Of a stretch of 64,000 nucleotides of DNA, positions 7,089-42,071 are shown piece after piece. Position 1 is the first letter of the stretch, and the number at the start of each line of letters is the position of its first letter. Location of the stretch: NCBI GenBank assembly GCA_009746045.1, contig RPFO01000078.1:1397107-1461106 (forward strand), given 5' to 3'. A program made the position numbers and the translations under genes. The notes beneath the pieces were generated by a model. It was given only the letters and a program-made list of their open reading frames with translations, was not told where the DNA came from and did no database searches. The stretch is from Mesostigma viride. Taxonomy: Eukaryota > Streptophyta > Mesostigmatophyceae > Mesostigmatales > Mesostigmataceae.

Positions 7089-7394
7089 AGATTACAGGTG
7101 TTTACTCATCCACTCCTTCAGTGCCGAGCGCGCCTGAACAACCTGGCAAAGTTGTGGGGAGAGGGCAGAAGCAACTGGAAACATCAGCTGGAAGCCAACC
7201 CACAAGTTGTTCTCCCCCAACTCCACCCCTGCAAGCAAGCTGAGCAAAGCACGCTTGGCAGGGTGAGGCACCAGCTGGCGTACTTTGTAAGGTTTGAGAA
7301 AGTCTCTCTGGGTCAAGACGTTATCCGGATGGGAGATATTCACCCAAGGAGAGACAACCAGTGTTTCTGCTAACGCACCGGTACCGGTAATTCT

Positions 7395-7645
7395 CCGGTA
7401 ATTACCGGTGCCCCCCCGGCCGACCGGTAAGCCCCCCCCGGCCGACCGGTATGCTATATGCCAAGCAGGAAACCCCCCCCGGGCGACCGGTATGCTATAT
7501 ATCAAGCAGGAACCCCCCCCGACCGACCGGTATGCTGTGTTCAGAGCAGGAAACCCCCCCGGCCGACCGGTAAGCCATGCCCGGGCTGACCTGGTCGACC
7601 GGGAAGCAAATAATGCCGGCCGGGGTTCCCCGGTTTCCCCGTCAG
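7395..7645 (+). repeat. About 40-bp minisatellite in the hAT-like element
   Basis: Five to six imperfect units begin CCGGTATGCTATAT or CCGGTAAGCC and contain AAGCAGGAA followed by a run of seven or eight C. It sits just inside the left terminal repeat. Confidence 0.7.
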
Positions 7646-9075
7646 ACAAACCCGGTACTTATATATACTGACTAATACAAAATATCAATTTCGATTAGTA
7701 TATGTTACTATTCCCGGCACTTACAAATAGTTTGCACATTGCTGCCATGCTAACACCTCCACCGAATGTAAATTCCGACACAGCAGAGCCCTACTGAATG
7801 CCCGACGAAAACCAGTGCGCCAGGGCATGGAATCTCGCGACGGTCCTATCGTAGCTACAGTACAAGATACCCTACTGATGAGGTTAAAATAGTAGTGCGT
7901 GACCCTCAGATGCAGTATTAAAAAAATAATCATGGGCAACGGCTCGTCAAGGCTAGGCGAATTCGCACAAACATTGCTCGCTCGCGACTTGAGTTGTCGT
8001 TGTTGTTGCCCACTTTTAATACCGGTGTGAGCTTGACCAGCACAAATCTCGTTGTTGTTGATGTTGAGTTGAGTTGAGTTGTTGGACGTGCTTACAACTA
8101 CTGTTGATCGAGGAGGGGCTAAAGTTTCAACTTCAATTTGTGAGCAAATAGATTATCCGTACCCAAGTAACAAAAGGCGTGGCGCGGTGCAGATCTGACC
8201 CTATAACGAATGGGTCAGCACTCAGCACTTGGCAGCCGGCAATTCCAGTCTGTCAAGTGCGTAGACTTGAGCGGGTAACAAATGCGCTGCGGAATGCCTG
8301 CAGCAGTAGGTACGCAACACGATGTAAAGGTGCTGAGCCGCTAGACGATGCATAAAGTTCACGGCAGTCGAGCCAGCTGACTTTGTTTTGCGTGTTTTCT
8401 AATCCTACATTTTTCGATAGTGCGCTAGAGGAGTGAATCATGACGAAGAAGAAAGAGCCCCCGATTCCCCTGGGCTACAAGTTCAAGGACCATCTCACAC
8501 GAGGTGGTGGCGTTTTGACCTTGGCTGGCAGTACGAGCGGTCGCCGGGCTTTGGGCACGGTCGTTACACACCAGGCGCAGGCAGGCAACGAGTTAGAAGG
8601 GGACGACACTGATAAGACGAATGGGGATGAGGGTGCCGTAGAGCAGGGCGATGCAGGTGGCTCAGCGCACCCACAGCGCGAAATTCATGGCGGTGATGTT
8701 CCGTAGCAGGCCATGTCGGAGCAGGTTGTTTCGACTCCGGCCTATGGGTGTATATGGTGCATGCAAACCCTAAGGCGGCATCGTGTGAGGTCACGCCAAT
8801 AATGTATGGGTGAGCTAATGTGAGCTACATAGCCTACAAGTGATGACAACTATGTTTTGTAACCTCCTATTGTGACTAGGCATGCTTGTATGCATGCTAA
8901 GTTATCATTTTCGCATGTTTTATTAGGGAGCCCTGCGTAAAAAAAAGGCTATGTGAATCAGGATTCAGGGCACGAGCAGCCCACTAAGGCAAGGCTTCAC
9001 AGTTTAGGATAAATTATATAACTGTATAAGAAATCCTATTGGGTTTTTATTTTTCTAAAAAAAATTCGCCAACAT

Positions 9076-9178
9076 CCGGGGGGGGCTCTGCCCCCCCCGG
9101 ATCCCCCCCCCGGCCTCGGCCGCTTCGCGGCCTCGGCCGGACCCCCCCCCTACCGGAGTTACCGGAACCCCCCCACCC
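9076..9178. repeat. GC-rich palindromic subterminal block
   Basis: Two nested inverted repeats, GGGGGGGGCTCTGCCCCCCCC and CGGCCTCGGCCG..CGGCCTCGGCCG around CTTCGCGG, are followed by CCGGAGTTACCGG near the right end of the hAT-like element. These may form strong hairpins. Confidence 0.6.
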
Positions 9179-9590
9179 CTTAGCAGAAACACTGGAGACA
9201 ACATTGGCTGGGGGGGCGGTCTGTGGGAGGTGCTGATACACGCGAAACTGTTGCTGATAATGATATATGTTAGGCTTTAAAGCAAAGAGGCAGCAGCGTT
9301 GAGACCACGTGGCTTCGTCGAGGCCACCATGCAAGAATAGAAATTGCAATACACTGAATTAGAACAGACGTTACAATCTGTATCATCAGACCAGCATCAC
9401 GCAATCACTGGCATCGGGGGGCAGTGAGGCGGAGGACGGACAGCCAGTAAGAAGTGCAGTCATTTATTACCTTGTGTATTACCATGTGCAAAAAAATCAA
9501 CATTGCGCGCACCATTGGTTGCCTTACTCAATACATCCACAGGCACATCTCTCTGTTGCGTGTGTGGCGGATGCCAGTGTAAATACTCAC

Positions 9591-12500
9591 CTCTTGTTCC
9601 GCGAATCCCAGCAGTTTGGCCGATGAAGATTGACCTTCAAAAGCAGCTGGGGAACCTGCGACTGTACCAGTTGCCAACCAGTAAGCACGTACGTTGGTGT
9701 GCATTGCTTGAGTGGGCATCATTTACAAGAGCACACATTTACAGGTAAAATCGAGCCAGGATCATGTTGGCAATCTAACCCTCCCTCGACCAAACGTGTC
9801 GGGTGACAAGCTCAGGTAGGCAAAGCAAAGCATTTCCATCCCGACTGTCCTGTCTTTTTCCAATATTTGGCGGCACGTAGTTGGGATGGCCGCCATTACA
9901 AAGTATAGTTGGGATGGAAAAATAGCTCATGCTTCACTGCTCCCTGCTGTGTGTCCGCAACTGGCAGTCTGTATGTGCGTGTGAGGAATGACGGTGGATG
10001 CGCGCGAGGGGTGCAAAGTGGGTGGTAGCGGCATAGGGGGGGCCAAAGGCACAGCATGGCCCGGTCTCTCTGCGTACGCCTGTGAATGCATGCCTATCCG
10101 AGAACTTGAGAGACGCGCGCTCATGAGACAAGGCGTTCACCATGGCGGCTGCCTGCAGGGACCATGGAAAAAAAGAGGCACTTGTAGATGGGAGGAGAAG
10201 GATTGCACAGTAACTAGTGACAGTGACAAGCAGGAACTCACCAGCAGGAGTCAAGCTGGTGACCGGAGAGAAGAGGAAGTAGGTGCGGCGGAGGCCCAGG
10301 TCGATGCCAGGGAAAACCCCGCTACCCCGTAGCCCAGCCACATCATCCGAAAATGCCCTATCCGGTGTGCCTGCTGAGGTGTCCCAGGGAGGGCTGATCC
10401 TGGCCAGCCAGCCGGCCGCCCGGGTCACTGCCCGGCCATTCCTGCCACTACTGCTACCGTCACCCCCACTGCCACTGCTTTTGCCGCTGGCGCTGGTATT
10501 AATTTTACTGATGCTGCTGTCGGTGCTGGTGCTGCTCGCGAGGGTCATGATTGGCACGCCTGCAGCATACGCCCTCACGAGGCACTGCGTGACCAGATCA
10601 TTCCACTCCTCCCGTGAATAGGCCCCCCGGTCGCTCTTGGGCCCCACGCCATGCTTCCCCCCCGTGGCCCTTGTGCTGGTGGACGCGTGCGCCGGGAAGG
10701 GGGGGCACAGGAAGACCACCTCCCCGTCCCGCAGCAGAGTGGCGCAGTTGGCGGGTGTCAGGGGCAGCCCTCCCATCCCGTGGAAAAAGCGCGCCTGGTC
10801 CCACGCGCTCTCCTCAGGGGACGTCGGCAGCAGCGCTAGGGGATCCGGCAAGGAGAGGCCTGCGGCGGTACGGCGTAAGGCGGAGCGCGCGCCGCCGAAG
10901 AGGACCGATCGGAATCGAAGGGGGCTGTTGTCCGGCACGGGGGCGGCCGCCGAGGAGGAGGAGAGGAGGGACGGATGCAAGAGGCAGCGGGGCAGCAGGC
11001 CGCGCTCTTGGAAGAGGCGTTTCACGACCAGCGCGATGTCTTGAGGGGGCATGGATGCATCGGGCAGGACAAGGAGGGGGCCCCAACGGGGAACCCCGGC
11101 AAGGCCTTGGATGACCCGCGGGCGACGTCGCTTGCTGCTGCTGCTGCTGCTGCTGGTAGTGGTGGCGGTGGTGGTAGTGGTGATGGTGGTGGTGGTGGTG
11201 GTGGTGGCGGTGGCGGTGTTTGTACTTGTGTTTGTGGTCGTGCTGGTACTCTTGGAGTCGGCATAGCCAGCAGAGCTTGTCAGCGTATCGACGTGGCCGC
11301 CTGCGACACCCCTTGATCCGACAACGCCAGATGCAATGCTGGCCACGCCACCATTACTGCCGTTGCCAGCACTTAACCCGTCAGTGCTCTTGGCACCGCT
11401 GGGTTTGCCTAGGCTTGCTCGGTCGCTGTCGATGCCAGTACTGCTATTACTGCTCCTACTGGATCCTGTCACCCCCTTCACCTTCATGGACAGGAACACA
11501 GGGCTGGTGGCCCACTCCTGCCACCGCAAGAACCCGCTGAGCTCCGCCACCTTCTTGGCCGAGGGGCGGGGGAATGCTGATGGTATGGGCGCGACGCCCG
11601 CCCACTTGAGCCGTTCGGGGACGACGTCAGTGGTCCTGGCGCTGCGGGCTCTGCCAGAATTCGCAGCGGTGCCGCTCGGTGGGCCTTGTTTCGCGCCGCT
11701 GGCGCCTGGTGACTTGTGATGGCCATCGCTACCCCCGTGGTCGGGGGCATGTGTGGTGGCTGAGTGACTGGTGCTAGTTTGCGCGGTATTGGTAGCGCTA
11801 ACGGGGGTATTGCTGCTTGCATTGGCACCGTGGCTGCTGGTGGGTAGCCCAGATCCTCCCGGGGGGGTCCGCGCCAGCGTCTCTTCCAATTTCTTCCACG
11901 TCGGCACACCGGCCTCTTGCTGTGTCCCGTTGAGGCTGCCCTCACCGACGTGGGCTGTGGGCCTGGGTTGGTTGGCCCTGGTCGCTGCCATGGGGGCGGC
12001 ATGGGTGGTCAGTGTGGCCTCCAGGAACCCGCTCTGCTCCATGATGCGCAGCACGTCCACGCCGTCCTCCTGGGATGCGCCCAGGCGACAGGAACGGGAG
12101 AAGAGAAACAACAAAGGAGCGATGACAGGGTCGCGATGAGAGGGGGGCGATGGGAGGGGGGCGATGAGAGGGGGGCGATGAGAGGGGGGCGATGAGAGGG
12201 GGTCGATGAGAGGGGGTCGATGAGAGGGGGTCGATGAGAGGGGGGCGATGCGAGGGGAGAGAGGGATGGCAAGGGGTGAGAGGCGGGGGAGAAATACTAG
12301 AAGCGATGAGGAGGAGAGACAAGTGACAAAGATGACGAGAGGAAGAGGACGGAGAAGTGGGGGTGAGGAAAGGAGCAAGCGAGAAGCGTGTTGACAAAAG
12401 GGTAACGTCAAACGTGCACACCCCGTGACCAACGAAGGAAAGCATGCAGGCGTTCCAGTGTCCAGTACGTCGCTAACAAACCTGACTATATTCACTATGT

Positions 12501-15500
12501 TTGGTTCGTTCGATGGTTTGGGTGGCTGAGATGCTGCAGGATGGGGTTGCTAATCGGCGTAACGAGCAGTGGCACACAGACAAGTGAAATTACAGACTAC
12601 AGACCAACGCACGGCTATCCTGCCATATTCTAGCATGGATGACCAAGGGGTTCATGTCCCTGCCAACAACTTGACAGGTGCAAGAAGAAACATGCAGCAT
12701 CTCGGTAACATATCCAGCGCATTTGGCACGGGAGACCGGCTGTCGCATGCAGAGCAAAGAGCTCCTCATACCCTGCAAGGCATTGAGGAGACATGAGGGA
12801 CGTGGCCTACTATACACCGGTCTTGCCCAGAAGAGATCCTACTGAGATCCTGTACCATGTAGGTGACTGTACCAGCCACTTTGCCTCCTCACCATGAGCG
12901 CGGCATGACCGCTGGACGGGAGCTTGACCACCTGGCAGTTGGGCATGACCTGGCGCAGGCGTTCGCCCTCCTCCACGGATGGCAGCAAGAGGTCTTGCGT
13001 GCTGTCAAAATGCAGCAGGTGGGAGCATTATGGATCGCCAGGGCAGCTAGCCCGACCCACCAGATCAACCAGAGCAACAAGTCCGGGGGTAGGGCGAGCC
13101 TGTGAAGTTCACAGGCTCGCCCTACTAGTGTGAAGACAGAGCCCGGGAGGCAGACACGGGTACTACCACAAGAAGATGTTTCGAGGGGGCAACTAACCCG
13201 TTTGCCCTTTTTCTGGCAACTGACCATCCATCCAGCCAAGGGGAATCAAGGGATATGTCACGGCGATTATCAAGCAGGCCTACACGGGGCGAAGTAATGG
13301 GAGGCTTTTCCTTCCTCCCCTCGTGCGGCACATATACAGTTCCGCAGTACCTACTTGCCCATCAGCATATGCGGGGTCCTGCTGTGGCCTGCCCATTGTA
13401 GTACAAGAGAAGCAAGGGCACCCTCCCTCCCTCCTCGTGTCCAGGGGCTTATTGGCACCTTTATTGGCACCCATGCGACGCAGTCACGTGCTTTTGATGA
13501 ACTTATCAGCAAAAAAAACTTATTGACTGGGGCTAGTCAATCACACGCATCTGCCTGCCACACCGCCATCACCACACACATAGCACCGACCTGGCCAGCA
13601 CCAGCGTCTTCACGCGCACGGTGGGCAGCAGCGGGTTCACTCTCCGCACCGCATCCGTCAGCAACAGCATGCGCCAGTCCCAGGTCTCGGGCGGAAGCAG
13701 GTCGGGCAGTGCCTGGAGCCGTGTGGCGTGACAGTCGCAAGTATTCAAATGGAACCGCAGGGATCCCACGCACAGGAGCACGGCGTTGCAAGTGCCCAGG
13801 ACAAGATCAGAGCAAGGCACAACAATTACGATAGGTACCTTACTAGAAACACCTGAGAGAAGCTAGTAAACATCAAAATAGTCATAACAACAAGCTTGTA
13901 GACTCTATAAGGTTAAGAAATTATAATTTTATTCTTATAGATTGTCCTGCGGGTGTTGATGTAGGTTTTGTAAACGCTGTAAAATAACAACAGGACTTGA
14001 AGAAAGAATTCACATTCACGCGCTTAAGTGGGGCTGTTTTCAGGATCCATTTGGGATAGTAAGAAGCGTCGAGATCTTATGAAGCGGAAAATAGCCCACC
14101 CAAATACCACCCAGTGACATATCAATGAGACAACCCTAATCATATGGTCACTACGCGCTCAAGCTGATGAAATGCAACCACAGATACTTGATGATAATCA
14201 AGAGGCTATGATTAGAGAGCTGGAGGGCGACAAGATGTCAGAGGCCGCTGGTGTCAAGCATGTGACAGTGTCCAGCACCGCTCCCCTCTGCCCTCTCCCC
14301 TCTCCGCTCCCCCCTCTCTCCTCTCCCCTCTCCCCTCTCCCCTCTCCCCTCTCCCCTCTCCCTCTCCCCTCTCCCCTCTCCCTCTCCCCTCTCCTCTCCC
14401 TCTCCCTCTCCCCTCTCCCCTCTCCCCTCTCCCCTCTCCCCTCTCCCCTCTCCCCTCTCCCCTCTCCCCTCTCCCCTCTCCTCTCTCCTCTCTCCCCTCT
14501 CCCCTTTCCCCTCTCTCCACTCGCCTCTCCCCTCGCATTCTGCATCCAGACAATGGCAGCCCCCCTGACCTGGACCAGGCCACCATATTCGAGCAGTTGA
14601 AGAGGGGGAAATTTAAACAACCTTCAATAGGCTAGGAGCTGGAAGGTGACCAAGATGGTCAAGGGTGACAAGCAACAGTAGACCACGGTTTCAAGCACGT
14701 GACAATGACCAGCCAATAGGCCTCCCACCGCTCACCTCTCATCCCTCACCTATGCGATGCCAGCGCCCCTCACCTGCACCAGGCCACCGAACTTAAGCAG
14801 CTCGTTGATCACCCCCGACGCAAAGTCCCGCAGCGAGTCGCGCGCGGTGTCCTCCACCTGGCCCGCCGCCACGTCGAGCGCCCGCCCTGCGGATGCAAGG
14901 TTTGTGAATAACGGATGGGCACAAGTGGGCCGCCGATGAGGAAACTTGGCATTAGGCAGCAATAAAATGAAATGATAAGGATGAGCAAGGTGATGGCTAT
15001 TCAGCGGCTGATAGAAACTTGGCATTAGGGAGCAATAAAATGAAATGATAAGGATGAGCAAGGTGATGGCTATTCAGCGGCTGCCCGGCGTGCCATTGCA
15101 TCAGCAGCTACTGAGATGGATTATATGCCAGCGCTCCGCAATGCAAGCACATTAACAACACCATCAAGCATGTACGCCTACCCAATAAGTCGATGACACA
15201 CAGATGAAATACGGTGGCCTGGCTGATCCACAGGACGCGTGTTGGACTGCTGGATAGCGAACGCAGTTTAGGTGAACACGGACCCCACACGATCCGAATG
15301 AAACAAGCCCGAACGTGCGCAAACATGCCACGCATGCATACTGGGAAGAGGCACGAACACAACCCCTACCGACATGGGGAGTAGCACCAGCTAGGTCGCC
15401 TACCAACAAAGGGCAGCCAAGATCAAACCAAACCACCTACGCACAAAGGGCAGCCAAGATCAAACCAAATCACCTACCCACAAAGGGCAGCCAAGATCAA

Positions 15501-18500
15501 ACCAAATCACCTACCCACAGAGGGCAGCCAAGATCAAACCAAATCACCTACCCACAAAGGGCAGCCAAGATCAAACCAAATCACCTACCCACAGAGGGCA
15601 GCCAAGACCAAACCAAATCACCTACCCACAGAGGGCAGCCAAGATCAAACCAAATCACCTACACCCAGAGGGCAGCCAAGATCAAACCAAATCACCTACA
15701 CACCAAGGGGAGCCAAGATCAAACCAAATCACCTACCCACAAAGGGCAGCCAAGATCAAACCAAATCACCTACCCACAGAGGGCAGCCAAGATCAAACCA
15801 AATCACCTACACACAGAGGGCAGCCAAGACCAAACCAAATCACCTACCCACACAGGGCAGCCAAGATCAAACCAAATCACCTACACACCAAGGGGAGCCA
15901 AGACCAAACCAAATCACCTACCCACAAAGGGCAGCCAAGATCAAACCAAATCACCTACCCACAGAGGGCAGCCAAGACCAAACCAAATCACCTACCCACA
16001 GAGGGCAGCCAAGATCAAACCAAATCACCTACACCCAGAGGGCAGCCAAGACCAAACCAAATCACCTACCCACAGAGGGCAGCCAAGATCAAACCAAATC
16101 ACCTACCCACAGAGGGCAGCCAAGATCAAACCAAATCACCTACACACCAAGGGGAGCCAAGATCAAACCAAATCACCTACCCACAGAGGGCAGCCAAGAT
16201 CAAACCAATTCACCTACCCACAGAGGGCAGCCAAGACCAAACCAAATCACATACCCACAGAGGGCAGCCAAGATCAAACCAAATCACCTACACACCAAGG
16301 GGAGCCAAGATCAAACCAAATCACCTACCCACAAAGGGCAGCCAAGATCAAACCAAATCACCTACCCACAGAGGGCAGCCAAGACCAAACCAAATCACCT
16401 ACCCACAGAGGGCAGCCAAGATCAAACCAAATCACCTACACCCAGAGGGCAGCCAAGACCAAACCAAATCACCTACCCACAGAGGGCAGCCAAGATCAAA
16501 CCAAATCACCTACCCACAGAGGGCAGCCAAGATCAAACCAAATCACCTACACACCAAGGGGAGCCAAGATCAAACCAAATCACCTACCCACAGAGGGCAG
16601 CCAAGATCAAACCAATTCACCTACCCACAGAGGGCAGCCAAGACCAAACCAAATCACATACCCACAGAGGGCAGCCAAGATCAAACCAAATCACCTACAC
16701 CCAGAGGGCAGCCAAGACCAAACCAAATCACCTACCCACAGAGGGCAGCCAAGATCAAACCAAATCACCTACCCACAGAGGGCAGCCAAGATCAAACCAA
16801 ATCACCTACACACCAAGGGGAGCCAAGATCAAACCAAATCACCTACCCACAGAGGGCAGCCAAGATCAAACCAATTCACCTACCCACAGAGGGCAGCCAA
16901 GACCAAACCAAATCACATACCCACAGAGGGCAGCCAAGATCAAACCAAATCACCTACACACCAAGGGGAGCCAAGATCAAACCAAACCACCTACCCACAC
17001 AGGGCAGCCAAGACCAAACCAAATCACCTACCCACAGAGGGCAGCCAAGATCAAACCAAATCACCTACACCCAGAGGGCAGCCAAGACCAAACCAAATCA
17101 CCTACCCACAGAGGGCAGCCAAGATCAAACCAAATCACCTACCCACAGAGGGCAGCCAAGATCAAACCAAATCACCTACACACCAAGGGGAGCCAAGATC
17201 AAACCAAATCACCTACCCACAGAGGGCAGCCAAGATCAAACCAATTCACCTACCCACAGAGGGCAGCCAAGACCAAACCAAATCACATACCCACAGAGGG
17301 CAGCCAAGATCAAACCAAATCACCTACACACCAAGGGGAGCCAAGATCAAACCAAATCACCTACCCACAAAGGGCAGCCAAGATCAAACCAAATCACCTA
17401 CCCACAGAGGGCAGCCAAGATCAAACCAAATCACCTACACACAGAGGGCAGCCAAGACCAAACCAAATCACCTACCCACACAGGGCAGCCAAGATCAAAC
17501 CAAATCACCTACACACCAAGGGGAGCCAAGACCAAACCAAATCACCTACCCACAAAGGGCAGCCAAGATCAAACCAAATCACCTACCCACAGAGGGCAGC
17601 CAAGATCAAACCAAATCACCTACCCACAGAGGGCAGCCAAGATCAAACCAAACCACCTACCCACAGAGGGCAGCCAAGATCAAACCAAATCACCTACCCA
17701 CAGAGGGCAGCCAAGATCAAACCAAATCACCTACCCACAGAGGGCAGCCAAGACCAAACCAAATCACCTACCCACACAGGGCAGCCAAGATCAAACCAAA
17801 CCACCTACCCACAGAGGGCAGCCAAGATCAAACCAAATCACCTACCCACAGAGGGCAGCCAAGATCAAACCAAACCACCTACCCACAAAGGGCAGCCAAG
17901 ACCAAGCCAAATCACCTACCCACAGAGGGCAGCCAAGACCAAACCAAATCACCTACCCACAAAGGGCAGCCAAGACCAAACCAAATCACCTACCCACAAA
18001 GGGCAGCCAAGACCAAACCAAATCACCTACCCACAAAGGGCAGCAGCACGGTGGGTGCGGCCGCGTACACAGGCTTGCGCACTGCGTCGTCGAGGTTCAT
18101 CAGCAGAGGGAGCACGGTGGGCAGAGGCGTGCGGTCCACCGACGTGGCTGTGGGATGGAGGGGAGGACAAGGGCAACGGGGGGCAGGTGAGGGCATTAGG
18201 GGGGAGGTGAGGGCAGTAGATGGCAGGTGAGGGCAGTAGGGGGCAGGTGAGGGCAGTAGGGGGAAGGTGAGGGCAGTAGGGGGAAGGTGAGGGCAGTACG
18301 GGGCAGGTGAGGGCAGTAGGGGGGCCAGGCAGTGGAGCCTGATAAGGGCAGTATGGGGCCGGCAGAGAGGATCAGGGGCAGGTAGGTGGGCTGTACAATG
18401 CGTGGGCACAAGTGGAGTGGCCAGGCAGCTGAGTGGCCAAGCGCTCGGGTGGTAGAATGGGTGGGCGGGCATGCTGTGGCGCAATGGTGGAATGCCGTAT

Positions 18501-21500
18501 AGGGTTAGGTTGCAGTGAGGGGCGTGAGAGGGGGGGAGGAGAGAGAGGGCTAATGGGCAGGGAGAGGGATTTTACAGGGTTTCGTGAGACTTCCCTGAAG
18601 CTGAAGGCTTCCTTCAAAGATTGCTGCACTTACATAGAACCTTGGACTGACACGTCTAGAAGCAGCAAAGGCAACAGGTGCAAAGACTCTCGCATGCTAC
18701 CCGGTGCGATTTGTCTCCTGCGAAACCTCCCTCCCCCAGCAGGCGTTCCCGATGTTTACTTGATCCCCTCATTCGTCACATTCCCAACATTCCCTTGCAA
18801 TCCGCTCCCAGGGCTGACGAGCCCCCGCACCACACCCACCAGGGTTGACGAGCACAAGGCCAGCCAACAGGCCCTGCACGGCGGGCTCCAGGGCTACCGC
18901 CAGAGTGAGCACGGCGCCAAAGGATTCGCAGATGATGAGGATGGGGCGTGACGGATGCCTCTCTTTCTCGCGCACCAGCTCCGACACTACCACGTCCATC
19001 AGGCCTGTGCGGATGTGGTGGCGCGAGGAGTGGGCGATAGATCAATAAAATTGGATCATATGGAGCTCCGGCACTGCCTCGGCCATCAGGATGAGGGCAT
19101 AGAGCAGGCAACATAATCCATATAAACAAATTAATCACTTTGACTTAATCAACTAACGAATCAATTAAGGGGGAGACTCCCCGTGGAGTCATCAGTTCCA
19201 CAGTCTCTAAAGGGGACCGGCTTCCCTAAAAAAGATTTCCGGATGATAGTGCGCCAAAATCAGGAAATTATATGTCGGAACTCGGATGGCTTTGTCCCCT
19301 GCGGTGGTACTAAGGAGCGTGTGTGCTTGACGTGCCACACACGTACTAATGGATGTAGGAAGTGGCCAAACGCAGGAGTGAAGGGCCGGCCACAGGATGT
19401 GATGCCCGGCCCCGTTCTCGTTTGACTCCCAAAACTTTTTGTCTCATATCCAACTGGCAGCATATCCACTGGCAGCATATCCAACTGGCAGCCACAGTTT
19501 CGTTTGTCAGTTGCGTGCGTGTACCAAAGCCACGAGTTTATTCGTCAGTTACGGATATGCGTGGTTCCCAAGTTGATGAGCATGCATGCATCGACTATCA
19601 CTGCCTGCCTCCGGCTCATTCCCAGTGCCTATAGGTGGGAGAAGAACGGAGACGCTTCCAAGGGAAGCTGGAGAGCCGGAGAGACTGCGTTCCTGTTGCG
19701 TCTACAGGGAAGAGAGTCAGAGCATGGGTGTGCTGCGAGAGAAGGAGAGCTGGGTGTGGCAAACAGCAAGGGCATAATAGACCACGAGAAGACTGGCTCA
19801 CCTTGGAACGTTGTTCGGTTGGCCAGCGGTACGGTGAGGGGCATAATAGACCACGCGAGGACTGGCTCACCTTGGAACGTTGTTCGGTTGGCCAGCGGTA
19901 CGGTGAGGGGCATAATAGACCACGAGAGGACTGGCTCACCTTGGAACGTTGTTCGGTTGGCCAGCGGTACGGTGAGGGGCATAATAGACCACGAGAGGAC
20001 TGGCTCACCTTGGAACGTTGTTCGGTTGGCCAGCGGTACGGTGAGGGGCATAATAGACCACGCGAGGACTGGCTCACCTTGGAACGTTGTTCGGTTGGCC
20101 AGCGGTACGGTGAGGGGCATAATAGACCACGCGAGGACTGGCTCACCTTGGAACGTTGTTCGGTTGGCCAGCGGTACGGTGAGGGGCATAATAGACCACG
20201 AGAGGACTGGCTCACCTTGGAACGTTGTTCGGTTGGCCAGCGGTACGGTGAGGGGCATAATAGACCACGCGAGGACTGGCTCACCTTGGAACGTTGTTCG
20301 GTTGGCCAGCGGTACGGTGAGGGGCATAATAGACCACGCGAGGACTGGCTCACCTTGGAACGTTGTTCGGTTGGCCAGCGGTACGGTGAGGGGCATAATA
20401 GACCACGCGAGGACTGGCTCACCTTGGAACGTTGTTCGGTTGGCCAGCGGTACGGTGAGGGGCATAATAGACCACGAGAGGACTGGCTCACCTTGGAACG
20501 TTGTTCGGTTGGCCAGCGGTACGGTGAGGGGCATAATAGACCACGCGAGGACTGGCTCACCTTGGAACGTTGTTCGGTTGGCCAGCGGTACGGTGAGGGG
20601 CATAATAGACCACGCGAGGACTGGCTCACCTTGGAACGTTGTTCGGTTGGCCAGCGGTACGGTGAGGGGCATAATAGACCACGCGAGGACTGGCTCACCT
20701 TGGAACGTTGTTCGGTTGGCCAGCGGTACGGTGAGGGGCATAATAGACCACGCGAGGACTGGCTCACCTTGGAACGTTGTTCGGTTGGCCAGCGGTACGG
20801 TGAGGGGCATAATAGACCACGAGAGGACTGGCTCACCTTGGAACGTTGTTCGGTTGGCCAGTGGTACGGTGAGGGGCATAATAGACCACGAGAGGACTGG
20901 CTCACCTTGGAACGTTGTTCGGTTGGCCAGCGGTACGGTGAGGGGCATAATAGACCACGCGAGGACTGGCTCACCTTGGAACGTTGTTCGGTTGGCCAGC
21001 GGTACGGTGAGGGGCATAATAGACCACGAGAGGACTGGCTCATCTTGGAACGTTGTTCGGTTGGCCAGCGGTACGGTGAGGGGCATAATAGACCACGAGA
21101 GGACTGGCTCACCTTGGAACGTTGTTCGGTTGGCCAGCGGTACGGTGAGGGGCATAATAGACCACGCGAGGACTGGCTCACCTTGGAACGTTGTTCGGTT
21201 GGCCAGCGGTACGGTGAGGGGCATAATAGACCACGAGAGGACTGGCTCACCTTGGAACGTTGTTCGGTTGGCCAGCGGTACGGTGAGGGGCATAATAGAC
21301 CACGCGAGGACTGGCTCACCTTGGAACGTTGTTCGGTTGGCCAGCGGTACGGTGAGGGGCATAATAGACCACGAGAGGACTGGCTCACCTTGGAACGTTG
21401 TTCGGTTGGCCAGCGGTACGGTGAGGGGCATAATAGACCACGAGAGGACTGGCTCACCTTGGAACGTTGTTCGGTTGGCCAGCGGTACGGTGAGGGGCAT

Positions 21501-23735
21501 AATAGACCACGCGAGGACTGGCTCACCTTGGAACGTTGTTCGGTTGGCCAGCGGTACGGTGAGGGGCATAATAGACCACGAGAGGACTGGCTCACCTTGG
21601 AACGTTGTTCGGTTGGCCAGCGGTACGGTGAGGGGCATAATAGACCACGAGAGGACTGGCTCACCTTGGAACGTTGTTCGGTTGGCCAGCGGTACGGTGA
21701 GGGGCATAATAGACCACGAGAGGACTGGCTCACCTTGGAACGTTGTTCGGTTGGCCAGCGGTACGGTGAGGGGCATAATAGACCACGAGAGGACTGGCTC
21801 ACCTTGGAACGTTGTTCGGTTGGCCAGCGGTACGGTGAGGGGCATAATAGACCACGCGAGGACTGGCTCACCTTGGAACGTTGTTCGGTTGGCCAGCGGT
21901 ACGGTGAGGGGCATAATAGACCACGCGAGGACTGGCTCACCTTGGAACGTTGTTCGGTTGGCCAGCGGTACGGTGAGGGGCATAATAGACCACGAGAGGA
22001 CTGGCTCACCTTGGAACGTTGTTCGGTTGGCCAGCGGTACGGTGAGGGGCATAATAGACCACGAGAGGACTGGCTCACCTTGGAACGTTGTTCGGTTGGC
22101 CAGCGGTACGGTGAGGGGCATAATAGACCACGAGAGGACTGGCTCACCTTGGAACGTTGTTCGGTTGGCCAGCGGTACGGTGAGGGGCATAATAGACCAC
22201 GAGAGGACTGGCTCACCTTGGAACGTTGTTCGGTTGGCCAGCGGTACGGTGAGGGGCATAATAGACCACGCGAGGACTGGCTCACCTTGGAACGTTGTTC
22301 GGTTGGCCAGCGGTACGGTGAGGGGCATAATAGACCACGAGAGGACTGGCTCACCTTGGAACGTTGTTCGGTTGGCCAGCGGTACGGTGAGGGGCATAAT
22401 AGACCACGCGAGGACTGGCTCACCTTGGAACGTTGTTCGGTTGGCCAGCGGTACGGTGAGGGGCATAATAGACCACGAGAGGACTGGCTCACCTTGGAAC
22501 GTTGTTCGGTTGGCCAGCGGTACGGTGAGGGGCATAATAGACCACGAGAGGACTGGCTCACCTTGGAACGTTGTTCGGTTGGCCAGCGGTACGGTGAGGG
22601 GCATAATAGACCACGAGAGGACTGGCTCACCTTGGAACGTTGTTCGGTTGGCCAGCGGTACGGTGAGGGGCATAATAGACCACGAGAGGACTGGCTCACC
22701 TTGGAACGTTGTTCGGTTGGCCAGCGGTACGGTGAGGGGCATAATAGACCACGAGAGGACTGGCTCACCTTGGAACGTTGTTCGGTTGGCCAGCGGTACG
22801 GTGAGGCACCGCAACTCAAACACGCTGAGCGCAGGCACAGCGCACAAAGCAACGGGCGACAGAAGACCACGGTAAAGTGAATAAAGCTCAGCCACACTCA
22901 CGAAGGCATTTAAGCGCACCCAGGATACTGCAGCTATAAGCTTCAGCTGGGGATGCCGTACGCCCTCAACCAGTTGCATGACACTATCTAGGCGAAATCT
23001 TCCCCTTTGTGCTATTTCGGGTATCTGCTGGGTGTGCCTGGCACCTGTGTCGTGATAGAAGACACAACCAGCCATTCATGGCCGATCAATCCGTGGAAGG
23101 CCAACACGTGGAAGGCCAAGGGACATCATAAAGTGCTCTAAGTTTCTACCAGGTGCACAGCGTGGGATGGTGACTGGCAGGCAACCTTCTCTTCTTGCCG
23201 GAGCGGTCCCATGGCAGATGAGATGTGGTTGGAACGCCCGAGGCACAAGCAAAGTATCACTCACTTATCGTGTGAACGTCGAAAGGTAGGGCTCAACCAC
23301 AGGTGCTTACGTCTTTAGCGGCGCAAACTGGGGAATGGCCCCGAGTCCCGTCAAGTCGATGCCCGGGAGATAGATGAGGAGGGGCGGGTCAGGGGGAGGT
23401 GGGCCCACCGCGGGGCACCAGAAGCGTGGGGCTACAGAACCACCGGTGTCATGCTGCCATCGCAGGTAATCTTCCATGCAGACTTCGCCCGCGTATCCTT
23501 TCGGCGCAATCTTTGACACAGGGGGGAGTCCCGAAAGGCCCGCAACCGTCACACCCCGCAGCTGGCGGGGGCTCCTAAGTACCCTACCATGGCGCTGCTT
23601 CGAAATTCTTGCACAAACCTTTCGGCTCCCTCCGGATATACTGAATAGCTGAGAATTACCGCGGAGAGAAAGGGGCGAAGCGAGCATGTCGACACTTTGG
23701 CATGCCATCGTAACGGACCTACCCTCTGGATTCAA
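9591..23735 (-). CDS. Phytyl-ester-synthase/diacylglycerol-acyltransferase-like protein (alpha/beta-hydrolase plus acyltransferase)
   Basis: Minus-strand exons, all phase-consistent with GT-AG introns: 23735-23311, 22824-22769, 19004-18840, 18147-18031, 14886-14774, 13712-13591, 13001-12893, 12069-10242, 9655-9591. A tenth exon is uncertain. Exon 1 starts with a Ser/Arg-rich stretch plausible as a plastid transit peptide, then LLIYLPGIDLTGLG, the hydrolase oxyanion-loop motif of this family. Exon 2 gives FELRCLTVP, and exon 3 ICESFGAVLTLAVAL with the nucleophile Ser. Exon 6 gives KTLVLA. Exon 7 has DLLLPSVEEGERL and a GHAAL catalytic His. Exon 8 opens with EDGVDVL and then carries the acyltransferase-like part (VIQGLAGVPRWGP, LLHPSLL, FFHGMGGLPLT). 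In plants the family makes phytyl esters and triacylglycerol in plastoglobules. Odd points are long Thr/Ser low-complexity inserts in exon 8, loss of the usual PGG motif, and a 3' end near a hAT insertion. The gene is divergent from the TMTC-like gene. Confidence 0.8.
11130..11230 (-). repeat. Trinucleotide tract inside exon 8
   Basis: GCT/GGT-type triplet repeats encode runs of Thr and Ser on the coding minus strand. They lie between the hydrolase-side sequence and the KRRRPRVIQGLAGVP acyltransferase start, so they lengthen an inter-domain linker and keep the frame. Confidence 0.7.
12130..12258. repeat. About 15-17-bp intronic minisatellite
   Basis: About eight units of GATGAGAGGGGG(G)C/T lie in the intron before exon 8, roughly 60 bp from its acceptor. 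Confidence 0.75.
13089..13125. repeat. Perfect 18-bp-arm palindrome in intron 6
   Basis: The arm GTAGGGCGAGCCTGTGAA is followed by a single G and the exact reverse complement. It lies in the intron between exons 6 and 7. A foldback of this strength can be a MITE relic or an RNA hairpin; no flanking duplication was found. Confidence 0.8.
14200..14800 (-). repeat. Segmental duplication of the end of exon 5
   Basis: The true exon 5 end (GGTGGCCTGGTGCAG then GTGAGG on the minus strand, about 14774) has a degraded second copy at 14564-14600 (GGTGGCCTGGTCCAG then GTCAGG). Downstream intron sequence is copied as well: 14218-14290 resembles 14640-14735. The duplication thus spans an exon end and its splice donor. 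Confidence 0.65.
14277..14531. repeat. (CTCTCCC)n-type microsatellite
   Basis: A pyrimidine-only tract of about 250 bp on the plus strand, dominated by CCTCTCC units, in intron 5 of the minus-strand gene. The open frames it produces on both strands are a by-product. Confidence 0.9.
14939..15083. repeat. Two-copy 70-bp tandem duplication
   Basis: GAAACTTGGCATTAG...TTCAGCGGCTG occurs twice, starting near 14940 and 15010, and differs by very few bases. It lies just upstream of exon 5 in intron 4. Confidence 0.85.
15395..18044 (-). repeat. 37-bp tandem array derived from the exon 4 splice donor (about 71 copies)
   Basis: On the minus strand each unit contains GCTGCCCTTTGTGG, identical or nearly so to the last 14 bases of exon 4, followed by GTAGGTGATTTGG, the start of intron 4. 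Unit length is 37 bp. Variants are mainly A/G and C/T changes and an alternative GGGGAGCC form, with higher-order blocks repeated several units apart. The array fills about 2.65 kb of intron 4. Because 37 is not a multiple of three and sense units contain stops, read-through would not be coding. Confidence 0.9.
18160..18330. repeat. 20-bp intronic minisatellite
   Basis: Seven to eight units of GAGGGCAGTAGGGGGCAGGT, with GGGAAGGT variants, lie in intron 3 immediately before the exon 4 acceptor. Confidence 0.8.
19770..22805 (-). repeat. 69-bp tandem array derived from the exon 2 splice donor (44 copies)
   Basis: Each minus-strand unit holds 37 bases identical to the end of exon 2 (CTCACCGTACCGCTGG ... 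TTCCAAG) followed by 32 bases that begin intron 2 (GTGAGCCAGTCC...). The array is 3,036 bp, which is 44 units. Units are almost identical; the main variation is one GAG/GCG position. The unit is 23 codons and contains no stop in the sense frame, so the frame of exon 2 stays open through the whole array to a stop at 19629. The upstream-most unit is the functional exon 2 end itself. Confidence 0.93.
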
Positions 23736-26192: not shown

Positions 26193-29100
26193 ATGGGTCG
26201 GCGGAAGCCAGCAGTCCGGCACAAGGACTCGGCGTCAGAAACCCGGCATGCCCATGACGACAACGACGACGCGTTCACAGGGAGCCCGCGTTGTTTGCCA
26301 CCGCATGCCAACGAAGGCGTCAGCATCCTCCTGTCCGTCTTCCTCTCCTCCCTGCTTGCATTGCTCATCTTCCTCCCGTCCATCGGCAACAGCGTGATCT
26401 ACGACGACATGTACGTGGTCAACAACCCGGACATCCAGCCGTCCCGCATGAGCTGGCGCTCGCTAATGACGCACGACTGGTGGGGCACCGTCCTCGACGA
26501 CCGGCAGAGCAACCAGCAGTGGCGGCCGCTGTCCGTCATCTCCCTCGGGCTCGACTTCTGGTTCTGGGGCTGCACAGAGCCCATCCCTGGCCGTACCGCG
26601 TTCGCCGGGGATGCGCGGGGCCCGGTAGAGAACCACGAGTGCCTGCGTGGTTTCCACGCGACAAATATAGCGCTGCACGCTGCGTGCACCGCGCTCGTGT
26701 TCCTGTGCGCGCGGCTCGTGCTGCGGCTCCCGCTTATCCCCTCCTTTCTGGCCGCGTGCCTGTTTGCCGTCCACCCGGTGCACAACGAGAGCGTCTCCAC
26801 CGCCTACGGCCGAGCCGACATGCTGTCGTTGTTCTTCCAAGGGTTTGCTATGCTCTACCACGCGGCACGGTTCGGACACACCAAGGTCAAGCCCTCGCAC
26901 TCGCCCACCTCGACGTCGCTGCTCACGACACTGCTCAGCCCGCCACATGGCAGCGGCCGGCCGGGCCACACACACCCCGTGCTGCGGCGCAGCGTGAGCA
27001 TGCTGCGGCGGCATTCACTGCTGGCGCACGTCAAGTCGTTCGTGTACGAGCTGGTCCACCCAGAGGTGCTGCTCTGCCTCGCCTCCTTCCTCACCAAGGA
27101 GTCTGGTGCGTGTCTGCTTTTGGTGGCTTTCGTGGTGTCTGAAATGGTGTCTGAAATAGCGGTGCCATTGGCAGTTTCAAATGGTGGTTGGAATGGTGGT
27201 TGGAATGGTGGTTGGCATGGTGGTTGGAATGGTGGTTGGAATGGTGGTTGGAATGGTGGTTGGAATGGTGGTTGGAATGGTGGTTGGAATGGTGGTTGGA
27301 ATGGTGGTTGGAATGGTGGTTGGAATGGTGGTTGGAACGGTAGTTGTAATGGTGGTTGCAATGGTGGTTGCAAAGGTGGTTGGAATCGTGGTTGGAATGG
27401 TGATCAGCAAAGTGGCCTAACTGGTGGTGGTAACAGTGGACCGCTCATGCTGGCAGACGGGCGGGCAAGTTTGAGTGGAATCAAGTAGGGCTACGAAAGG
27501 ATACTGTTGTCGCATTATTCAGGCCAGAGCCTGAAGCCTCGGCGCCCCCGCCTGCCAGGGCATCCCTGTCTCTGCGACGCAGCAAAGGGAAGCTCTCGTA
27601 TGTGCACAGGCTCTTCAAGTATGCACCATGGGAGGCCTGTCACAAACATCTTGTTGCCTCTAATTTCCCTTCTGTCACAAACATCTTGTTGCCTCTAATT
27701 TCCCTTCTTGACCTCGACTTCCAACCTTGGCCCCCCCGCCCCTTCCCCTCCCCCACCCCTTCCGCCACACCACCCCTGTCCCTGCGCAGGCATGATGACA
27801 TTTTTCACCATATTCGCCTGGGACCTCCTAATCCTGGACCCCGCCGTGGTGCTGGGCGCCGCGCCCGCCTCGGCCGACAAGTCCCACCCCCGCGCCATCG
27901 TGCCGGCCGGCAGCAACAGCAACCTTGGGCAAGTGGCGGGATCCGGTCCCCCCGTGCAGGGGAACTCCCCGGGGGCGCCCACCAGCTCCAGCAGCAAGTT
28001 GACTCGCGTGCTCGCGGGCGTATCCAGTGGCCCCGCGTACACATGGGTGGGCATGTTGGCCAAGCCCGCCGTCGGCGTGGGCATCGTCGTCGCCCGTAAG
28101 ATCCTGTTGAAGAAGTGGCTCCCCCCCACGGGCTTCATGGACAACAACATCAGCTTCTACCCGCCCTGGCCGCGCACGCTGTCCAACCTACACATCCACT
28201 ATCGCTACCTGGGCCTCCTCATCCTGCCCCTCTACCAGGCCATCAACTACTGCTACGACTCCATCCCCATCGTCACCTCCATCTGGGACCCCCGCAACCT
28301 GCTGTGGGTGTCTGCGTACACGGCGGTCCTCTCCCTCCTCTGGGTGTTCTGGCGCGCGCGCAACCACGTGGGCACATTCCTCATCCTGTGGGGCGCGCTC
28401 GTCTTCCTCCCCGCGTCCAACATACTGTTCCCGGTGGGGACCGTCATCGGCGAGCGGCTCCTGTACCTCCCGTCCGCGCCCTTCTGCATCCTCGTCGCTG
28501 TGTGCATCTACTGCGGCATCAACGCGGCGCCCTGGAGGGGTCCCTGCCCTGGTGCCGGCGGGGGCGAAGGCGACCCCGCTGACGCCCACCCCCCACGGTC
28601 CCCCCGCTCCGCCGACGCACGCACGTACCGCGTCAATGGGGCGGGTGCCGGCTGTGATGTCACGAATGCAGAGGGTTCCAGCGGTTCAGGGTATTCCGGG
28701 CACGCTAGAACGGGAGGGCCGGGCGTGGCCCTGGTGGCGCACGAAGGGGTCGGGGCCATGTGCGGGGATCCCTCCCTTTCGGTCGGCGGGTCGCCCTCCG
28801 CTTCGTCCTCGTCCGCACTGGTAGCCGTGTTGGTTGCCATCATGTCCCTCCCTGCGGCCATCTGGACGATCGTGCTGACGTGTGACGACCGCAGGTGCGG
28901 GCGGCGCCATCCGGCCGCCGACGGGCGCGGCTGGCGCGTGGCGCTTCTCCTGGTCATCATCGGTATTGCGGGCGCCACGCTGAACGCGCGCGTGCCGGAC
29001 TACCAGGACAACTATCACGTGTACACCGCCACGCGCAACAACTACCCGCGCAACGCGTTCGCCCACTACAACCTCGCGGTCGAGATGGACAAGCGGCGCG

Positions 29101-32016
29101 AGTACGTGGAGTCGCTGGTCCCGTACAACCACGCGGTCTCCCTGTTGAACGAGGTGAGGCGCGCGGTTTATGGTGGGGTTGTCTGGTTGAGGGTTGCCTC
29201 GTCGGGTTTTCGGGTCGGGTTGTCTGGTATGTGTGTGCCATGTGGCATCAGTAGTGTGTGTCGTAGCGAGTCAATGCCATGGTAAATTCTCATCAAAATC
29301 TTCTTTTGAAATTGTTGAGGTGGCAATTGTTGATATCGCTCCACTTGGAGCCACCCATCCCCTACACCCACACGGTGTCGCTGGTCACTGCTGTGAGGTG
29401 AGCCACGCGGCTTCACCCATCACGTTGTGTGTGTGCCTCGACTCCCCCCTTGTCCATCTGCTCCCCTGCATGCCCTGTGTTGCCCGCATCTATTGCGTCT
29501 TTGCCCGCCGCAAGCAACGAAAACATGAGCACTGCGGTCAAGTGAAAGCAACCATACAGTGAGCATCGCTGTCAAGTGAAAGCAACCATACAGTGAGCAT
29601 TTCGGTCAAGTGAAAGCAACCATAGAGTGAGCATTGCTGTCAAGTGAAAGCAACCATACAGTGAGCATTGCGGTCAAGTGAAAGCAACCATAGAGTGAGC
29701 ATTGCTGTCAAGTGAAAGCAACCATACAGTGAGCATTGCGGTCAAGTGAAAGCAACCATACAGTGAGCACTGCGGTTAAGTGAAAGCAACCAAAACGTGA
29801 GCACTGCGGTCAAGTGAAAGCAACCATACAGTGAGCATTGCTGTCAAGTGAAAGCAACTACACAGTGAGCATTGCTGTCAAGTGAAAGCAACTACACAGT
29901 GAGCGTTGCTGTCAAGTGAAAGCAACCATACAGTGAGCATTGCGGTTAAGTGAAAGCAACCATACAGTGAGCATTGCGGTAAAGTGAAAGCAACCATACA
30001 GTGAGCATTGCGGTCAAGTGAAAGCAACCATACAGTGAGCATTGCGGTCAAGTGAAACTCCCTGCCTTTCACGCGTCTCGTCACGCGTCTTCCTCACTTT
30101 GCTAATACTCTGCTTGGTTTATTCCTTTGCTCTGGTTTATTTCGTTACTCCAGGAGGGTGGAAACAGGAGGCTTCCACCCTCCTGTTTCATGCCCCTCGT
30201 TTCCACTCATGTCGCTACTCCCTTATCGTTCCCTTTTCCCGTTGTTCGAGTGCCGTGTGCCAGATCCTGGAGAAAGATCATATTTTTTACTCATCACTTT
30301 GTGTGCACCTCTGTCCCCCCTCTTTGTGATTCCCCCTCTGCGCTTTTCCCCCTCGTTGCTACTCCCATTGTGCGTGCTTCTTCACTCATGTTGCAACTCC
30401 CTCGCCAATCCCCCTTCTCCTCCCCGTCGCGGTCGCCAGATCCTTGTAGGTTCGCTCATCACGTCGCATTTTACTCCTCGTCCTCCCTTCCTCACCCTCG
30501 CTCTCCCATCCTTATGCACGAGCGCGTTGCCACTCATCATCACGTCGCACTTTACTCCCCTTTCCCCTCGTCCCCCACCCCCTTGTTGGGGCCGCCAGAT
30601 CCTGGAGCGCGAGCACGGGCTGGGCCTGGACACGTCCCACACACGGGAGCAGCTCTTATCCAAGGTGATCGACCGGCGCGACTTCCTGCAGCAGAACAGC
30701 CAGACGCTCTACGAGGTTAACGGTGAGTGGGTTTAACAGTATCTGCTGCTAGTAGCGCTTTGGACTGCTTGCACGCCGTGGCATGCCGCTGCGTATGACA
30801 TGCAAGTACTTGCTTGCACGCCGACAGCCAGGCGCTCCCTGAGGTCAACGGTGTGTGGATGCGATGTCTTTTAGGGGTACGGGCCTGGTACGGGGGTTAT
30901 GAGAGAATTTGATATGAGGTCAATGATATCAGGTCAGTGAGGTCAACGGTTATTGGATGGATGTTGGTGGCCGTTGGCTGTGTGTTGGTGGACTTGTTCT
31001 GCATGCCAACCGTGACAGGTGTGGTGCGGGGTCAAACGTGCGTGTGTGTTGACTGTATGTGTTCTTTTCCTTACTCGGCCATACCCTCACAGAGCAATCT
31101 CACAGGCTCTTCTCCCATCGCCGTTGGGGGTCGGTGTGCCCACCGACACAGTACCGTACCCATCACTTCCTCAAACTAATGGCCTCATGCATTCATGCCT
31201 TTACTAATGGATGGCTTCATCCTCACCAATGGGTGGCCTCCCCAACCACTCTTGGGCAGCGCATTGCACGTGTGAATACATTCACACACGCCATGAGCCT
31301 CACCATCCCTGATGGATACCCTCCCCCTCTCCCTTGGCTTTTTCCTCACCCCCCCCAGTGGATGCTCCTCTAGGGTATCCTCGCCGATTAACGCCCTCCC
31401 CATTCTCCTGTTCTCACTCTGCCAATCGGATGGAGACATGCGCAACCCCTTGGATGGTTCCTCACATTTGCCTGCCCTCACCAGTTCGCGTGGAAACGCA
31501 TTTACCCTCAAACGGATGCAAAGGGGTGCGTTCACCCTCACCCATTCACCTAGCCCCACGCTCACAATCGCATGGCTTAACCCTTCCCAATGGGTGGTCT
31601 CGCGCCTTCGCTCGCCCTCACCAGCCATCCACGACCAGATTCTGGAGCTCAACGAGGCAGGCGTGCTGCAGGAGCGCGAGGGCAAGAGCGAGGCCTCCCT
31701 GGCCGCCTTCAACCGCGCCCTGCAAGTCTCGCAGCCGCTCTGGCAGGAGATGCCGCGCCTGTCCGGCCACGTGCAGGAGAGCGTGCGCGTCGTCTTCCAG
31801 AATACCTGCTATGTGCTCGCCAAGATGGGCATGTACTCGGAGGCCCACATGGTCGTGGACCTGGCCCTCAACATCTTCCCGGCCAACTCCAACGACCACG
31901 CCACGTTCGCCATCAACAAGCGCACGCTCGCCCAGCTGGAGGCGCAGGGGAAGGAGGTGGGGGCGGGCGATGCTAGCAAGGCGCACACGGCAACGTTCGG
32001 GCTCAAGACCTCGTGA
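26193..32016 (+). CDS. TMTC-like transmembrane and TPR protein
   Basis: Four exons join in phase: 26193-27105, 27790-29153, 30599-30722, 31625-32016. The start is the first ATG in frame (MGRRKPAV). Exon 1 gives a membrane segment (LLSVFLSSLLALLIFLP), then YDDMYVVNNPDI and HDWWG, typical of the luminal loop with the acidic pair, and LFAVHPVHNESV..GRADML. Exon 2 continues with FFTIFAWDLL, FYPPWPRTLSNL (DUF1736-like) and LVFLPASNILFPVGTVIGERLLYLPS, then the first TPR (NAFAHYNLAVEMDKRREY). Exons 3 and 4 hold further TPR-like helices (SEASLAAFNRALQ, AHMVVDLALNIFP). Animal TMTC proteins are ER O-mannosyltransferases acting on cadherins. The same ER topology is likely here, but the substrate is unknown. 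TPR number is low compared with animal members. Confidence 0.82.
27179..27400 (+). repeat. 12-bp minisatellite at the start of intron 1
   Basis: About 18 units of GGTTGGAATGGT begin some 75 bp after the exon 1 donor. The frame of exon 1 stays open through the array, reading Asn-Gly-Gly-Trp repeats to a stop at 27488. Retention of the intron would therefore add an NGGW-repeat tail. Confidence 0.9.
27639..27708 (+). repeat. Exact 35-bp tandem duplication
   Basis: The 35-bp block GTCACAAACATC...TTTCCCTTCT occurs at 27639-27673 and again at 27674-27708 with no difference, in intron 1 of the TMTC-like gene. Confidence 0.9.
29525..30058 (+). repeat. 34-bp tandem array in intron 2 (about 15.7 copies)
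   Basis: Units read GTCAAGTGAAAGCAACCATA then CAGTGAGCATTGCG, with small variants (GCT/GCG, CTACACAG). It has no unique spacers, so it is a minisatellite and not a CRISPR. It fills the middle of intron 2 of the TMTC-like gene. Confidence 0.93.
30255..30610 (+). repeat. Repeated exon 3 acceptor in intron 2
   Basis: The acceptor and exon start GCCAG/ATCCTGGAG at 30594-30607 has earlier look-alikes: GCCAGATCCTGGAG at 30259-30272 and GCCAGATCCTTG at 30435-30446. Each is preceded by related pyrimidine-rich sequence with CTCATCAC..CGCA..TTTACTCC. The spacing is 176 and 159 bp. Confidence 0.6.
30697..30960 (+). repeat. Repeated exon 3 donor in intron 3
   Basis: The exon 3 end ACAGCCAGACGCTCTACGAG then GTTAACGGTGAGT is echoed at 30824-30853 (ACAGCCAGGCGCTCCCTGAG then GTCAACGGTGTGT), and its last bases are echoed again at 30937-30950 (GTGAGGTCAACGGT). 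Exon end and donor are copied together. Confidence 0.65.
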
Positions 32017-37210: not shown

Positions 37211-37573
37211 GGGCACACCCTCGCGGCCTCGCGGTACAATAGGCTTTGGGCACAGCCTTTATAAACAAGCCCCTTTCCATCCTCATGTCGCACCGTGCGA
37301 GCATGATCAGGATGCAAGGTCGCCAGGCACGCCACGGTCAACCTTCCCGCCAATTTACCAGCCTTACACGCCTCCTAGCCCGCCTTGAGCGGGATGAGGC
37401 CCAGTCGACACGCCGGCGACCCCAGCCAGGACGGAGACGACGCATATCCGTCCTGAAAGAAAGCCTCCATGCGTTGACAAGCATTAACCCCAATCGCCAC
37501 CCTCCCCCTCCCCCCCCCACCCCCACCCCCACCTCCAGCACTACCCTTCTCCACCCCCACCCCCACCCCCACC

Positions 37574-41931: not shown

Positions 41932-42071
41932 TCACTCGCCTCCGTTGGGAGAGTCATGCACAGGGTACCAACTTTTGAGGTACCTTTCATCGGTGTCATG
42001 CCGATGCATGCGCCCCAGGCATGCGCGCTTTGCTGCGCTTAAGGGGTTCGAGCTAGCCTGGCTAATTGGAC

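Follow-up and report, generated by a model that had tools for sequence, protein, structure and literature searches.

A 44-copy minisatellite spanning an exon–intron junction in Mesostigma viride and copies of exon edges in adjoining introns

A predicted alpha/beta hydrolase gene of Mesostigma viride carries a tandem array of 44 units, each made of the end of an exon, its splice donor and the beginning of the following intron. We consider it probable that this array (array 1) is an exon-edge minisatellite, the extreme of a common border-spanning duplication that lengthens introns. The array lies in a window of 64,000 nucleotides, by which we mean the whole stretch of DNA analysed (contig C1724, bases 1397107-1461106, in a genome of 440 Mb and 2243 contigs). 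Copies of exon edges recur at other exons of the same gene and of other genes.

Array 1 begins within exon 2 and runs on into intron 2. TRF places it at 19770-22806, with a 69-bp period and 44.0 copies (score 5927, 99% matches), and cutting it unit by unit gives a spacing of exactly 69 bp in 43 cases out of 43, head to tail. In the sense of the minus strand, each unit consists of 37 nt of the exon 2 end, followed across the junction AAG/GTGAG (the slash marks the splice site) by intron 2 sequence, 32 nt in total; it equals 23 codons and is stop-free in the sense frame. Twenty-three of the 44 units are identical, 18 share a one-base variant (T to G at unit position 52) and the remaining three have one other change apiece. 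Along the array the T and G variants are not clustered (23 runs, p = 0.65). A repeat so long and so uniform is no chance match. Read in frame from exon 1, array 1 is without a stop throughout, the first stop coming after 1197 residues, 46 residues beyond the array end.

These results bear out the initial annotation of this DNA as to 44 tandem 69-bp units across the exon 2/intron 2 junction and as to their make-up of 37 exonic and 32 intronic bases, 23 codons long with no sense-frame stop. Of the 44 equivalent donors that it listed, 43 have an intact GT; in copy 26 the GT has become AT. Its span of 19770 to 22824 is right at the start, 22824 being the start of exon 2, and the array ends at 22805. 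Recent expansion or homogenisation, which it had also suggested, agrees with the 23 identical units and the 18 that are one base off. The unit is not widespread away from exon 2: in a DNA search covering the 440-Mb genome, in which repeat match counts are lower bounds, a 211-base piece of array 1 gave 18 matches, each of them at array 1 itself, and no dispersed copy. An assembly artefact that inflated the array or its copy number is extremely improbable, given that the unit variants are interspersed, that array 1 sits on a 2.26 Mb contig and that independent junction copies occur across many genes and contigs.

When the exon 1-3 region was used as the query in a protein search, a single protein matched, P0001 (jgi/Mesvir1/26501/Mv16161-RA.4), which maps exon by exon onto the window. 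Its first residues are the MDVVV of exon 3, so that exons 1 and 2 are missing from the deposited model. Ten exons joined at GT/AG sites, using donor 1 of the array, give 1009 amino acids with one terminal stop; this model extends P0001 exactly in frame and its C-terminal end is exactly that of P0001 (Table 1). Residues 1-377 match the alpha/beta hydrolase profiles PF12697 (1.1e-9) and PF00561 (1.4e-7), and the nucleophile-elbow motif CESFGA lies in exon 3; by this fold-family match and motif, the predicted product belongs to the alpha/beta hydrolase family. We take it to resemble phytyl-ester-synthase. Pfam scans of the minus-strand flanks gave weak hydrolase matches only, Rfam nothing at gathering scores, a sequence search of the PDB weak matches confined to the C-terminal part, and NCBIfam matches only far under cut-off. 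That array 1 coincides with a deposited model short of the first two exons is a warning to annotators.

Table 1 Exons of the hydrolase gene and exon-edge copies. Positions are those of the window unless a contig or block is named.
Feature	Location	Strand	Basis
Exon 1, start codon at 23708, holds LPGIDLTG	23311..23708	-	joined ten-exon CDS
Exon 2, last 37 nt = exonic part of array copy 1; donor CCAAG/GTGAG	22769..22824	-	
Intron 2 if first donor used, 3764 nt	19005..22768	-	gene model
Array 1, 44 x 69 bp junction-spanning units	19770..22805	-	unit-by-unit cutting and TRF
Array 1 copy 26, donor GT to AT	21012..21080	-	unit cutting
Decayed copy of exon 3 start, inside intron 2	19064..19090	-	23/27 bases match; score 19, p=0.003
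Exon 3, holds CESFGA; deposited model starts at its MDVVV	18840..19004	-	
Exon 4, last 14 nt within array 2 copy 1	18031..18147	-	
Array 2, 37 bp x 71.5, second donor-spanning array of the gene	15399..18044	-	
Exon 5	14774..14886	-	P0001 mapping and joined CDS
Decayed copy of exon 5 end and donor, intron 5	14553..14596	-	60-nt test score 26, p=0.003
Exons 6-10 (overall 7092..13712)	13591-13712, 12893-13001, 10242-12069, 9591-9661, 7092-7142	-	
tRNA-synt_2d exon (phenylalanyl-type), L014-L033	block 57540-58120; C1724 ~1254650-1255230	-	PF01409
Chaperonin exon (PF00118), L086-L087; donor-bearing 48-bp unit x10 including the exon's own copy	C1702:1285565-1287358		

Two paralogues, L011 and L012, align across the exon 1/2 and exon 2/3 junctions in one continuous frame; at the equivalent of the exon 2/3 junction L011 has no insert and L012 a 3-residue gap. 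The structure of the predicted gene is established by homology, and homology and frame together indicate that the first (5'-most) donor is probably the one used in splicing. The uninterrupted paralogues, with the gap in L012, also fit a birth of intron 2 as a new intron made of exon copies, by tandem duplication of an AGGT segment (the Rogers model); so do the AAG/GT present in 43 of the 44 units and, in the accessible part of PMC4974935, the fission-yeast relatives in which an intron lies across multiple 24-bp tandem copies. We regard this origin as very unlikely here. The array 1 unit takes in 32 nt of intron and the model acceptor (19005) lies outside any unit, the introns of conserved genes also carry edge copies, and intron loss in the paralogues, which may have occurred, would do as well.

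Elsewhere in the window, TRF finds 150 copies of the tetranucleotide ATTC at 41334-41934. Open frames match a retroelement aspartyl protease, integrase core and Tf2-1 SH3 at 54429-58546 (the element looks Ty3-type), TMTC_DUF1736 (protein O-mannosyl-transferase) on the plus strand at 27699-29285, with several minisatellites nearby, and Exo_endo_phos (PF03372) at 37478-39100.

In the hydrolase gene itself, array 2 starts 14 nt before the end of exon 4, and the donor region of that exon recurs, with variants, in its units. The unit types of array 2 (15399-18044) repeat block-wise. The copy of the exon 5 end sits about 180 nt into intron 5. Counting all junctions of the gene, three of its nine donors and one of its nine acceptors are positive; six donors and eight acceptors are negative at p = 0.01, the exon 3 end having p = 0.023. 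Array 2 is one further junction-spanning array of the kind for which the initial annotation suggested a search, and that of the chaperonin exon of Table 1, in another gene, is a second; the chaperonin array is in frame and open and forms a close parallel to array 1. A tRNA-synt_2d exon in the neighbouring 200 kb ends VFHQ/GTGAGG and is then followed by six intronic copies of its end, at 58, 116, 174, 388, 428 and 465 nt. Their identity falls with distance, being in the same order 29, 29, 27, 27, 23 and 21 of 30 bases.

The generality of these copies was assessed in 50 exons from two families at 28 loci or genes of this one genome (20 of 135 matches to PF00069, 30 of 58 to PF00118). The exons are partial domain matches that end inside the domain, chosen by hand before their sequences were seen and with repeats disregarded, and 320-340 nt were fetched on either side of each. 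An edge test compared 45 nt of coding sequence with 300 nt of intron against 300 dinucleotide shuffles, a hit being p < 0.01 with a score of at least 14; it keeps all 50 exons, requires no donor call and supersedes an earlier, looser count (7/19 donors and 4/19 acceptors, L053 of the 20 being without callable sites). The 3' end of the exon is copied in the following intron in 16 of 50 cases (kinase 6/20, chaperonin 10/30), and the 5' start in the preceding intron in 8 of 50. Exon middles are copied in 0/50 following and 0/50 preceding introns (16/50 against 0/50, Fisher's exact test, p = 7e-6). Exon ends were found in 0/50 preceding introns and exon starts in 0/50 following introns, one having p < 0.01 with a score under the cut. 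Based on score alone, inverted copies number 0/50 for ends and 0/50 for starts, and mismatched introns, those of other exons, give 7/2450 for ends and 2/2450 for starts. The excess of 16 donor over 8 acceptor hits is not significant (Fisher 0.10; McNemar 15 versus 7, p = 0.13) and is gone at a score of 18 (7 versus 7), so that a preference for donors was rejected. A replicate on ab initio exons gave two 3' ends, two 5' starts and one middle, and its 10 exons are too few.

We also made an annotation-free search of a 264-kb block, in which triple-spaced AGGTGAG occurred in 5 bins, where 36 scrambles gave 0.11 on average and 2 at most. Little weight is given to this result because triple-spaced AGGTAAG and AGGTGGGT gave none in the same block and one of the arrays is antisense to the hydrolase gene (block 218179). 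At block 18225-19230, a strong donor-like site occurs in a 54-bp array that has no recognisable coding sequence by eye and is left uncounted.

The position of the copies was profiled with 30-nt windows (score at least 15) in 49 exons, leaving out L053, which has no callable sites. On the donor side, windows centred 80-150 nt inside the exon have no match (36-49 exons), and beyond 40 nt matches number 0-1 of 49 (1/49 at 50-70 nt). They rise through 2, 5, 7, 12 and 13 of 49 at 40, 30, 20, 10 and 0 nt from the donor, continue at 5-11/49 in the following intron out to 120 nt (7/48 at the far end) and drop to 2-3 beyond. On the acceptor side there are 4-6/49 matches at 0-30 nt inside the exon, 0/49 at 40-80 nt, 2/48 at 90 nt and 0 deeper, with 3-7 in windows of the preceding intron. 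Exon interiors are nearly free of copies, the exon-start windows being not perfectly clean (2/48 at 90 nt).

Since 12-13 of 49 windows match at the donor and 5-11 of 49 in the intron interior, the donor is copied at most about twice as often as nearby intron. Duplication is widespread in this DNA: local direct repeats occur near 80 of 752 random positions, and arrays of period at least 10 cover 8.5% of the 264-kb block. The 16 of 50 exon ends exceed the random-position background (p = 8e-5), a comparison between tests that differ in template and threshold; for that reason we do not claim a mutational bias specific to junctions, which may be hit like any other sequence. The contigs C1641 and C887 (loci L075 and L076), probably haplotypes, share 97-99% identity over one chaperonin intron; a 43-bp minisatellite there has 2.5 copies by TRF in one contig and one unit fewer in the other, and judging from this pair the copy number of such units is changeable. 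The pair also differs in this intron by an insertion of about 3.1 kb, which is LTR-like as judged only by identical TRF rows near both its ends.

The reading frame bears on another proposal of the initial annotation, a hypervariable splice or protein-length switch, in which the use of inner donors would add a 23-residue module 1 to 43 times over where exons 2 and 3 meet. Array 1 is open and in frame throughout, as is the chaperonin array of 48-bp units, and in human IFI6 three mRNAs derive from repeat donors, according to the available part of PMC4526556. Array 2 of the same gene does not keep the frame: its 37-bp unit is not a multiple of three, and a stop lies within two codons past the first donor. 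The tRNA-synthetase copies at 58, 116 and 174 nt likewise speak against a switch, as does the paralogue L011 with no insert at the equivalent point. Across genes, we measured the lags of donor copies with a donor-centred 60-nt test, in which 19 of 49 exons score at least 16 and the donor position aligned in 17 (not in L035 and L048). This set takes in L067, L080 and L083, which are outside the 16 positives of the edge test; for L086 the donor in the test is array copy 2, its true first lag of 48 being also divisible by three. The lags fall 6/6/5 into the three remainders modulo 3, and 3 of the 17 are both divisible by three and open. In 33 of 49 introns the first 32 nt are open in the exon frame, which multiplied by one third gives a chance of about 0.22 (one in four to five) that a unit is open and in frame; selection is thus not required to explain why the 69-bp unit fits the frame so neatly. 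As a general rule, a frame-selected module is rejected on account of the remainders, the stop in array 2 and this chance level. For array 1 itself we consider the switch unlikely, and the proposal is left without support, although inner donors may be used at a low level by analogy with what is published for human IFI6.

A donor array could also work in RNA processing, as U1 sites against premature polyadenylation or as AG/GT ratchet points for recursive splicing, and 43 intact AAG/GTGAG sites in one 3.8-kb intron would suit such a role. A strong pyrimidine tract before the AG is absent by eye. At other exons the donor copies decay, with the GT kept in 12 of 17 aligned copies at about 80% identity, as expected without selection. 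We judge such a function highly improbable.

For exon-edge duplication, we infer both the mechanism and the neutrality of the copies. A tandem duplication across the exon 2/intron 2 border would create a second exon end and donor. Splicing from the first donor would still yield the normal mRNA, so that the extra copy would be intronic and shielded from selection, and slippage or unequal exchange could then multiply the unit to 44 copies. A similar process would be common in the genome at both exon ends, in most cases with just one or a few decaying copies as the outcome, and border copies would expand or decay, enlarging introns. A direct duplication across an acceptor would leave the product of the last acceptor unchanged; one inside an exon would change the protein. 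Under such a filter on the outermost site, edges would be copied and middles would not, copies would be direct only and reach a limited way into the exon, and they would show no frame preference and would decay, and this agrees with the copies observed.

An intron-growth mechanism was among the options of the initial annotation, and the copied ends and starts, set against the uncopied middles, support it more widely than had been claimed. We suggest more tentatively that intron growth in Mesostigma viride proceeds from the intron ends, with a sizeable share of intron DNA being exon-edge debris and arrays being bursts, a reading that we find plausible if not quite favoured. Intron lengthening is usually told in terms of transposons and neutral insertions. 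That about a third of the sampled internal exons have their end copied downstream would offer a direct, datable mechanism of intron growth. The Mesostigma genome paper gives 38.7% repeats, and the word intron has 0 occurrences in the portion of its main text that was available (PMC7027972); within a limited set of partly accessible literature we met no account of Mesostigma introns that hold copies of exon edges, and we make no claim that they are unpublished. Arrays such as array 1 are natural competitions of near-identical donors, which may help to show how the spliceosome picks the outermost.

As in human IFI6, array 1 is a minisatellite that bears splice donors and extends from exon into intron. 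The IFI6 (6-16) minisatellite reportedly supplies multiple splice donors, as the title of the 1995 work of Turri et al. has it. Its unit is 12 bp, compared with 69 bp in array 1. Use of inner donors is documented for IFI6, where two downstream repeat units serve as donors and yield three mRNA species (PMC4526556, in its available part, citing Turri 1995); those of array 1 are predicted donors. IFI6 is, on that partial account, a single-gene precedent, whereas the hydrolase gene bears two arrays, and edge copies are met in further genes and at acceptors too. In the accessible part of PMC4974935, intron gain by tandem duplication covers, besides the 24-bp copies in fission-yeast relatives, a potato RdRp case in which the duplication crosses an intron–exon boundary, with ATP2A1 listed alongside; as in these cases, splice-site sequence is duplicated in array 1. 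On that same account, intron gain turns exonic or boundary sequence into a new intron, whereas array 1 lengthens an intron, and the Rogers-type segment supplying both GT and AG is not what array 1 provides, its acceptor at 19005 lying outside. Like ordinary intronic minisatellites, array 1 has near-identical head-to-tail units, presumably made by slippage or unequal exchange; unlike them, its units start in coding sequence, carry a functional donor and include exon edges.
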